From: Catenuloplanes niger | GTDB taxonomy: Bacteria; Actinomycetota; Actinomycetes; Mycobacteriales; Micromonosporaceae | DNA: 64,000 nucleotides | Reading direction: 5' to 3' | Assembly (NCBI RefSeq): GCF_031458255.1 | Contig: NZ_JAVDYC010000001.1 | Span: 5,651,001-5,715,000, forward strand | Part shown: positions 20,477-38,291 of the stretch, piece by piece | Numbering within the stretch: position 1 is the first letter of the stretch | Layout: each line of letters begins with the position of its first letter | Program-made: the position numbers and the translations under genes | The notes under the pieces: model-generated | What the model saw: only the letters and a program-made list of their open reading frames with translations | The model's database searches: none | Told to the model about the DNA's origin: nothing

Positions 20477-20545
20477 ATGTCCCTGTGCCTGACCGCCACG
20501 TTCGCGATCACCCGCGACCCTCGGTCCTCTCGAGTACTTATCTGA
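20477..20545 (+). CDS. ilvB leader peptide (Val-Leu-Ile)
   Basis: Short frame of 22 residues, MSLCLTATFAIT then RDPRSSRVLI. It ends in one codon each for Val, Leu and Ile directly before the TGA. The stop overlaps the first stem of the attenuator. Starved ribosomes stalling on these last codons would change which hairpin forms. This is the standard logic of branched-chain attenuation; ilvB leaders are known in actinobacteria. No ribosome-binding site is evident. Confidence 0.75.
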   Translation: MSLCLTATFAITRDPRSSRVLI

Positions 20546-20608
20546 GCGCACTCCCCTCGATTTGGGAGTGCGCTGGCCCCGTGTGATCTCCACACGAGGG
20601 CCGTTTTT
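20545..20608 (+). promoter_or_regulatory. ilvB transcription attenuator
   Basis: Hairpin 1 is a perfect 11-bp stem, AGCGCACTCCC (20545-20555) with GGGAGTGCGCT (20564-20574). It is followed immediately by an intrinsic terminator: GGCCC and GTGTG (20575-20585) pair with CACAC and GGGCC (20591-20602), then five T (20604-20608). It lies 100 nt before ilvB, downstream of the leader peptide. Confidence 0.85.
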
Positions 20609-20713
20609 ATTGGCCGGGACTGGGCCGGCTGACATGGGAGCAGCCTCCAGCATGCGGCGGTTGAACACATTCGAGATGTAGCAGCACCGAAGGTCCGAAA
20701 GGTCCGAACAGCC

Positions 20714-36522: not shown

Positions 36523-36591
36523 CCTGAAGGTCCGTCCCGGATTGTGGGTTTCTGCCACCGAGGAGTGGACAACGGTGGCAAGCTTTGGCTC

Positions 36592-36618
36592 GTGACTTCC
36601 CTGATTATTGGCACCTAG
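36592..36618 (+). CDS. cimA leader peptide (MTSLIIGT)
   Basis: Eight-residue frame GTG ACT TCC CTG ATT ATT GGC ACC TAG with consecutive Leu-Ile-Ile codons. ATT is a rare Ile codon in this GC-rich genome, which would sharpen sensing. An in-frame GTG at 36565 would extend it to 17 residues. The stop abuts the first attenuator stem. The role is inferred from codons and position. Confidence 0.6.
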   Translation: MTSLIIGT

Positions 36619-36676
36619 CGCACCGGCATCCCCTCGCCGAGTGCGCAGACCTCCCGCGACCGCGGGGGGTCTTTTT
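36618..36676 (+). promoter_or_regulatory. cimA transcription attenuator
   Basis: First hairpin: GCGCACCGGC (starting 36618) pairs with GCCGAGTGCGC (ending 36646), with one bulged A. Immediately after it is an intrinsic terminator, AGACCTCCCGC (36647-36657) / GCGGGGGGTCT (36662-36672), followed by a run of T to 36676. It sits 35 nt before the cimA ATG, the same order as the ilvB leader. Confidence 0.8.
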
Positions 36677-36710
36677 GTTGGTGTTGACAAACCCAGAAGA
36701 AGGTATCGCC

Positions 36711-38291
36711 ATGGACTACCAGGTGTTCGACACGACGCTCCGCGACGGCGCGCAGCGCGAGGGGATCAGCTTCTCGGTCGCGGACAAGCTCGCGGTCGCG
36801 CGGCTGCTCGACGAGTTCGGCGTCGGCTTCATCGAGGGCGGCTGGCCGGGTGCGATGCCCAAGGACACCGAGTTCTTCCGCCGCGCCCGCACCGAGCTCG
36901 ACCTCAGGCACGCGCAGCTGGTCGCGTTCGGCGCGACCCGCAAGGCCGGCGTCGACGTCGCGGACGACCCGCAGATCGCGGCGCTGCTCGACTCCGAGGC
37001 GCCGGTCGTCTGCCTGGTCGCGAAGTCGGACATCCGGCACGTCGAGCGCGCGCTGCGCACCACCGGCGACGAGAACCTGGCGATGGTCCGGGACAGCGTC
37101 GCGCACGTCCGCGCGCACGGCCGCCGCGTCTTCATCGACTGCGAGCACTTCTTCGACGGTTTCCGGCACGACCCGGACTACACCGCGTCCGTGGTCCGCG
37201 CCGCGCTGGACGCCGGCGCCGAGCGCGTGGTCATGTGCGACACGAACGGCGGCATGCTCCCGTCCCGGATCACCGCCGCGATCGAGGACCTGACCGCGCG
37301 GCTCGGGATCTCGCCCGAGGTCCTCGGCATCCACTGCCAGAACGACACCTCCTGCGCGGTCGCGAACACGATCGCCGCGGTCGAGGCCGGCGTGAAGCAC
37401 TTCCAGTGCACCGCCAACGGCTACGGCGAGCGTCCCGGCAACGCGGACCTGTTCGCCGTCGTCAGCAACCTGCAACTGAAGCTCGGGCTCCCGGTCCTAC
37501 CGGACGGGTGCCTGGAGAAGGCGGTGCGCGTCGCGCACGGCATCGCCGAGATCGCCAACATCGCCCCCGACACCCACCAGGCCTACGTCGGGGCCGCGGC
37601 CTTCGCCCACAAGGCGGGACTGCACGCGAGCGCGATCAAGGTCGACCCGGTGCTCTACAACCACGTGGATCCCGCGGTCGTCGGCAACGACATGCGCATC
37701 CTGGTGACCGAGATGGCCGGCCGGGCCAGCATCGAGCTCAAGGCCAAGGAGCTCGGTGTCGACCTGGCCGGCCAGCCGGAGGCGCTGTCCCGGGTCACCA
37801 AGCGGGTCAAGGAGCTGGAGGCGGACGGCTGGAGCTTCGAGGCCGCGGACGCGTCGTTCGAGCTGCTGGTCCGCTCCGAGCTGCCGGGCGCCGAGCCGGT
37901 CCGGCCGTTCGCGCTGGAGTCGTACCGGGTGATCGTCGAGCATCGCGAGGACGGCGCGGTCGTCTCCGAGGCCACGGTCAAGGTCCGGGTCGGTGAGCAG
38001 CGCGTGATCGCCACCGCCGAGGGCAACGGCCCGGTCAACGCGCTCGACGAGGCGCTGCGGCAGTCGCTGTCCGCGCACTACCCGGCGCTGGCCACGTTCG
38101 AGCTGGCCGACTACAAGGTCCGGATCCTGGAGGGCTCGCACGGCACCTCCGCGGTCACCCGCGTCCTGGTCGGCACGAAGGCCGCCACCGACGGCGGCTG
38201 GACCACGGTCGGCGTCCACGAGAACGTCGTCGAGGCCTCCTGGCACGCCCTGGTCGACGCGCTCACCTACGGCGTCGACCACGGGGCCTGA
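36711..38291 (+). CDS. cimA: Citramalate synthase
   Basis: Condenses pyruvate and acetyl-CoA to (R)-citramalate, giving 2-ketobutyrate for isoleucine without threonine. 526 residues. HMGL-like catalytic domain: DTTLRDGAQREGISFSV, ECGG-like EGGWPGAMPKD, and the metal site with HCQNDTSCAVANT and GYGERPGNADL. The C-terminal LeuA-dimer domain is the regulatory, isoleucine-binding part in the family. The CimA type is preferred over 2-isopropylmalate synthase because of the GWPG and GERPGNADL blocks. ATG after GAAGAAGG. Confidence 0.95.
   Translation: MDYQVFDTTLRDGAQREGISFSVADKLAVARLLDEFGVGFIEGGWPGAMPKDTEFFRRARTELDLRHAQLVAFGATRKAGVDVADDPQIAALLDSEAPVVCLVAKSDIRHVERALRTTGDENLAMVRDSVAHVRAHGRRVFIDCEHFFDGFRHDPDYTASVVRAALDAGAERVVMCDTNGGMLPSRITAAIEDLTARLGISPEVLGIHCQNDTSCAVANTIAAVEAGVKHFQCTANGYGERPGNADLFAVVSNLQLKLGLPVLPDGCLEKAVRVAHGIAEIANIAPDTHQAYVGAAAFAHKAGLHASAIKVDPVLYNHVDPAVVGNDMRILVTEMAGRASIELKAKELGVDLAGQPEALSRVTKRVKELEADGWSFEAADASFELLVRSELPGAEPVRPFALESYRVIVEHREDGAVVSEATVKVRVGEQRVIATAEGNGPVNALDEALRQSLSAHYPALATFELADYKVRILEGSHGTSAVTRVLVGTKAATDGGWTTVGVHENVVEASWHALVDALTYGVDHGA

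Follow-up and report, generated by a model that had tools for sequence, protein, structure and literature searches.

The cimA gene of Catenuloplanes codes for citramalate synthase, the entry enzyme of one of the routes to isoleucine, and is preceded by a short leader that is likely to act as an isoleucine-sensing, ribosome-mediated leader-peptide transcription attenuator. Its layout, as read from the DNA, is best understood as that of the actinobacterial ilvL/leuL2 kind of element, of which the literature that we found describes no cimA case. The window, i.e. the whole stretch of 64,000 nucleotides that was analysed, spans positions 5651001-5715000 of the 9.74 Mb Catenuloplanes genome, and the features discussed here are collected in Table 1.

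Table 1. Parts of the cimA leader region and the related ilvB leader, in window positions
Feature	Position	Strand	Basis or remark
Extended -10-like element TGGCAAGCT (hexamer CAAGCT, 36579-36584)	36576-36584	+	Start codon 7 nt downstream
Predicted transcription start	near 36591-36592	+	Placed from the -10-like element
Leader peptide frame MTSLIIGT, 8 codons (GTG ACT TCC CTG ATT ATT GGC ACC TAG)	36592-36618	+
Candidate isoleucine control codons ATT ATT	36604-36609	+	In-frame conservation; ATT excess in family leaders
First hairpin	36618-36646	+	Starts on the final G of the TAG stop codon; proposed antiterminator
Intrinsic terminator, adjoining the first hairpin	36647-36680	+	Stem 36647-36672, then U tract
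Shine-Dalgarno-like AGAAGAAGG of cimA	36695-36703	+	Sequence
cimA, citramalate synthase	36711-38291	+	TIGR00977, 591.5 bits (cut-off 450)
ilvB leader, related, outside the cimA element	20477-20611	+	Frame 20477-20545, then hairpin and terminator

A preliminary description of this DNA had named a small frame, a first hairpin, a T-tailed terminator and a downstream cimA gene, all of which are present where it placed them; the TIGR00977 score is well above its cut-off. It had let the element begin at an earlier in-frame GTG (36565). The small frame is real, but this start was rejected because it lies 5' of the conserved -10-like element, which makes 36592 the better leader start. Its remark that ATT codons are unusual in this setting is also borne out, as the isoleucine codons of the window's cimA and ilvB genes comprise 60 ATC and no ATT or ATA. 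A terminator scan found one site in 601 bases against 0.2 expected from shuffles, and the fold of 161 nt has a z-score of -2.85, with two of 200 shuffles folding equally well. The site was considered as the terminator of a neighboring gene and rejected, since the ahpD-like gene upstream is on the minus strand and the U tract on the plus strand.

The alignment of relatives that the preliminary description had proposed as a check was carried out on 81 upstream regions, namely that of the window and those of 80 cimA relatives, the best among 465 confirmed in named genomes; as only the best were taken, this family set leans to close relatives, which, judging from their names, we take to be Micromonosporaceae. 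All 81 regions preserve the small frame with its in-frame isoleucine codons and stop, followed by the hairpin and the terminator with their two stems, and all 81 carry TGG.[C/A]ANNNT 6-8 nt before the leader start. Two adjacent isoleucine codons are seen in 78 of the 81 leaders, and the ten leaders that lack TAG all end at an in-frame TGA instead. As the parser first used on the family sought isoleucine, a second test blind to the frame was run, in which TGNCANNNT plus 5-9 nt was all that fixed the start, and the first AT[TC]AT[TC] was then checked for its frame. Among 169 regions (81 family and 88 class), 49 yielded no call, and in all 120 callable ones (78 family, 42 class) the isoleucine codons were in frame, at offsets of 12, 15, 18, 21, 24 or 33; the reverse strand of the same 169 regions gave zero calls. 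Codon usage sets the leaders apart from their genes: isoleucine is written ATT 153 times and ATC 7 times in the family leaders, against 7 ATT, 1277 ATC and 1 ATA in the cimA coding regions that follow these leaders. The comparison indicates a frame, mostly of 8-16 codons with isoleucine near the stop, that behaves as translated. A chance small frame was rejected on the strength of this leader-versus-gene contrast, the conservation in 81 of 81 family regions and the 120 of 120 in-frame calls. By eye, a TGTGGATT-like stretch followed by TCCCA is also seen tens of bases 5' of the -10-like element in many Micromonosporaceae (e.g. L047, L061, L101), and is possibly an operator or an upstream promoter part.

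Both stems of the secondary structure covary, which was another proposed check. The covariation score of 0.295 compares with 0.175 in shuffles, none of the 500 reaching it, and with a maximum of 0.151 in slid controls; double changes occur in 9 of 15 stem pairs across 62 sequences; the three outermost pairs of the first stem are invariant in these sequences and therefore uninformative on pairing, either way. RNAalifold yields only two compatible helices, and the conserved part, about 90 nt, consists of the frame and two hairpins. Among 135 elements the first-stem region varies in length from 21 to 76 nt, and the gap from it to the terminator stem is 0 nt in 103 and 1 nt in 20. As a control for this adjacency, a hairpin with 5 or more pairs, its end no more than 2 nt from the terminator that follows, was found for 88 of 89 leader-like terminators and also for 13 of 25 in the "other" set, which is contaminated by cimA leaders. 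Once ten cimA leaders recognized by eye (L046, L048, L052, L062, L064, L078, L100, L111, L119 and L130) had been removed from the 26 listed "other" cases, such a hairpin adjoined 2 of 16, in a control that is small and includes several doubtful terminators.

The placement of these parts suggests how the element might work. The leaders are probably leaderless, with the extended -10 element 6-8 nt before the start codon, and transcription would start at or beside that codon; given this start, the ribosome is expected to load at the 5' end of the RNA and to trail RNA polymerase. With ample Ile-tRNA it would reach the stop codon and cover the first hairpin's 5' strand, whereupon the terminator would form. 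With Ile-tRNA in short supply it would wait at the ATT codons, with its leading edge only at the base of the first hairpin; the hairpin would then form, termination would be averted and cimA would be transcribed. If the leading edge is taken to lie 13 nt past the A site's first base, a ribosome waiting at the final isoleucine codon reaches 2-5 nt into the first stem in 126 of 135 elements (2 nt in 85, 4-5 nt in 37), and one at the stop reaches 8-29 nt into it, with at least 10 nt in 132 of 135. From these computed reaches, the ribosome at the stop would mask the 5' strand of the hairpin, whereas the one stalled at isoleucine would largely spare it, and for a biosynthetic gene the expected sense of a hairpin spared by the stall is that its formation turns the terminator off. 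Antitermination without shared strands is proposed because the search for a shared-strand antiterminator gave none and the first hairpin lies directly against the terminator. The block might come from a clash of the two abutting helices within the RNA exit channel, from the stalled ribosome being held near the polymerase or from some further structure that the folds do not show; the abutting-hairpin step, taken alone, is put forward tentatively.

The usual design of leader-peptide attenuators is that of the trp operon, in which stalling of the ribosome releases a stretch of RNA for pairing with the terminator's 5' strand (a 2:3 antiterminator). The cimA leader does have an intrinsic terminator between leader and gene, and the terminator and antiterminator of M. 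tuberculosis ilvB1 are described as mutually exclusive (PMC13236596). However, the search for a shared-strand antiterminator found none among the 135 elements, folded as pseudoknot-free equilibrium structures in four ribosome states, and hence we do not file the element under the trp type. In transcripts cut before the 3' strand of the terminator its 5' strand is mostly unpaired (mean pairing 0.07-0.29 over the 135 elements and four states), and the two-helix RNAalifold consensus likewise argues against such a switch; both stems coexist in the folding of 129 of the 135. Pairing of the first-hairpin loop with the 3' strand of the terminator is available to some elements (L052, L100, L111, L180, L198, L201), but it was rejected as it is the chosen fold in few and by eye is not class-wide. 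Of the attenuator claimed in the preliminary description, then, leader-peptide attenuation is supported and the textbook trp-type switch, which we regard as quite unlikely, is not. The first hairpin could instead serve purely as a pause signal that synchronizes ribosome and polymerase, with their closeness controlling termination. Pause hairpins occur in the trp and his leaders, and stems 0 or 1 nt apart, as in 123 of 135 elements, would suit this role; yet a pause signal alone leaves unexplained why, in the elements measured, the stop codon lies at or within the hairpin's 5' strand, and we consider this reading unlikely.

It is very unlikely that the element is a constitutive premature terminator whose frame does not sense isoleucine. 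In S. coelicolor ilvB, changes to the candidate control codons are reported to have been without effect (PMC1262725), but in a terminator that does not sense, the conserved in-frame isoleucine, the ATT excess and codons that shift with the gene downstream would serve no purpose. There is hardly any probability that a T-box or another RNA binding tRNA or a metabolite directly is at work. Some actinobacteria are predicted to carry a T-box at ileS (PMC1262725), but at gathering scores Rfam returned only two tRNAs in the window and nothing at the cimA leader, for which reason a T-box or known RNA family was rejected; the best permissive matches reach 12-16 bits, far under their gathering scores, and the conserved region offers no aptamer-like core.

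The preferred reading, an isoleucine-sensing attenuator, has its nearest counterparts in S. lividans, where ilvL (before ilvBHC) and leuL2 (before leuS) are leaderless leader peptides followed by hairpins and a U-rich stretch (PMC8079986). The cimA leader shares with them a short frame in which the amino acid made by the pathway is encoded and, between frame and gene, hairpins and a U-rich stretch, but it serves another gene and its codons differ. None of the eight S. lividans leaders listed in that paper belongs to cimA, its main text contains neither "cimA" nor "citramalate", and for leaders of such kind it cites Wolf et al. 2017 (J Biotechnol 251:112-123) on Actinoplanes. In M. tuberculosis ilvB1, PMC13236596 describes an upstream frame with branched-chain amino acid (BCAA) codons and a terminator before the gene; replacing the four of these by Ala codons abolished induction, and the same ribosome logic was proposed. 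It differs in having a 166-nt leader that is not leaderless, BCAA-wide codons (LVVI) and a proposed mutually exclusive antiterminator, of which we found none in the cimA leader. The Corynebacterium ilvB-II motif (PMC10272879) is similar in its conserved BCAA-rich upstream frame and the attenuation proposed for ilvB, but differs in gene, amino-acid set and the sequence of its structured motif. Seliverstov et al. 2005 described candidate leader peptides and terminators at ilvB, comparable to the present ones, and attenuators at trp, trpS and leuS; the part of that text seen does not mention cimA and reports no conserved structures for other amino-acid pathways (PMC1262725). A full-text literature search, with most subscription papers outside its reach, gave no cimA leader, and the preliminary description named no earlier one either. 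The earlier actinobacterial descriptions in the literature found are thus of BCAA-wide ilvB leaders and of leucine leaders, whereas here the citramalate route would gain an isoleucine-specific control of its own in an element widespread in Actinomycetes.

This spread was gauged in the class and the phylum. TIGR00977 scores above cut-off in 90 of 118 class genomes, and upstream DNA was taken for 88 of the 90 cimA genes, leaving out that of the window and one truncated where its contig ends. A pattern search among 21 relatives matched 11 genomes, but it is given no weight, as the reversed pattern used as control had matches in 5. A covariance model, R1, built from 62 elements (18 from the family set and 44 from the class set), matches 66 of the 88 class regions, namely the 44 from which it was built and 22 that did not enter it; the other 22 of the 88 regions have no R1 match. 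The 65 class leaders contain 92 ATT and 43 ATC codons, Ile-Ile occurs in 55 of them, and isoleucine makes up 21.6% of their residues. In whole-genome searches, which count any match wherever it lies relative to cimA, 91 of 116 class genomes and 47 of 149 phylum genomes have an R1 match at E <= 0.01. With the limit set at E <= 1e-6, a match is seen in 120 of 121 family genomes, the single one without a match (G030) having no close cimA match either (best E 7.9e-9). In the window's own genome no other place comes near the cimA leader (E 3.9e-21), the runners-up scoring 19.2 and 18.6 bits (E 0.41 and 0.62). In genus g63, which is probably Streptomyces (L131, L139, L140, L142, L149, L156, L175), the region of the first hairpin is considerably extended, and the leader frame continues to MxSFxxIIGSRRAGPQ, its stop lying past the 5' strand of the hairpin.

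The same layout recurs before other genes of branched-chain amino acid metabolism. The window's ilvB leader encodes MSLCLTATFAITRDPRSSRVLI, followed by its stop, a hairpin and a U-tailed terminator; the likeness noted in the preliminary description therefore holds for anatomy, while the score with the cimA-derived R1 is only 17.6 bits (E 0.008 for the window), and this leader is absent from the whole-genome R1 listing. We examined 40 further R1 matches, 20 from the class search, chosen away from cimA genes, and 20 from the phylum search. The 30 downstream frames scanned comprise 16 ilvB, 3 cimA (two cut short and under cut-off), 3 leuA, 2 leuB, 1 leuS, 1 ilvA (under cut-off) and 4 without a family. 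One match (L240) encodes MRTRILVLGKRVG, identical to the S. lividans ilvL peptide, and another (L245) is a leuS leader of the S. lividans leuL2 type (PMC8079986).

The residues of these leaders mostly shift with the gene. Twelve of the 16 ilvB leaders, i.e. without L250, L251 and L259, which have no credible peptide, and L262, hold Val 28, Leu 21 and Ile 12; three leuA leaders hold Leu 10 and Ile 2, the single leuS leader Leu 3, and two of the further cimA leaders Ile 4. A simple residue-gene rule is broken by two leuB leaders, with Ile 4, Val 2 and Leu 0; LeuB also acts in the citramalate route. The leaders concerned, at L263 and L267, read MSARQNAVIIIE and MSSFQVAIG, with Ile and Val before leuB-like genes. 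In the ilvB-type leaders (L230-L266) AT-ending synonyms are frequent, with GTA 13 and GTT 8 in the 12 leaders, and the window's cimA and ilvB genes have neither codon.

It is conceivable, if doubtful, that the actinobacterial attenuators of cimA, ilvB, leuA, leuS and some ilvA and leuB genes share one chassis, in which antitermination would require no strand in common with the terminator. The abutting hairpin (0-1 nt away) would keep the terminator from closing within the polymerase, and termination would be permitted once a ribosome at the stop codon masked that hairpin. Were this so, an untranslated leader would read through, unlike one of the trp type, and the spacing between the stems would set the response. 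As the codons on one and the same RNA chassis are Ile, Leu/Val or Leu depending on which gene follows, these elements offer a natural experiment on codon-specific attenuation, and the absence of a shared-strand antiterminator bears on the actinobacterial ilvB leader mutants that, according to PMC1262725, do not fit classical attenuation.

Some individual loci add to this picture. At L252, a locus whose scanned frame has no family, another frame reads like an acetolactate synthase. L228 (G350), likewise one of the four loci without a family, has at its upstream end, on the minus strand, a second strong R1 match (E 2.5e-15) with the peptide MFTPRIII, and the short frame after the L228 leader reads like an ACT-domain regulatory subunit. 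In class family f18 the element precedes none of the seven cimA genes, and in the f18 genome G287 (L238, start of the locus) an Ile-bearing leader, MTVHEMAIT, stands before an ilvA-like gene; in f18 isoleucine sensing may have shifted to the pathway's other point of entry.
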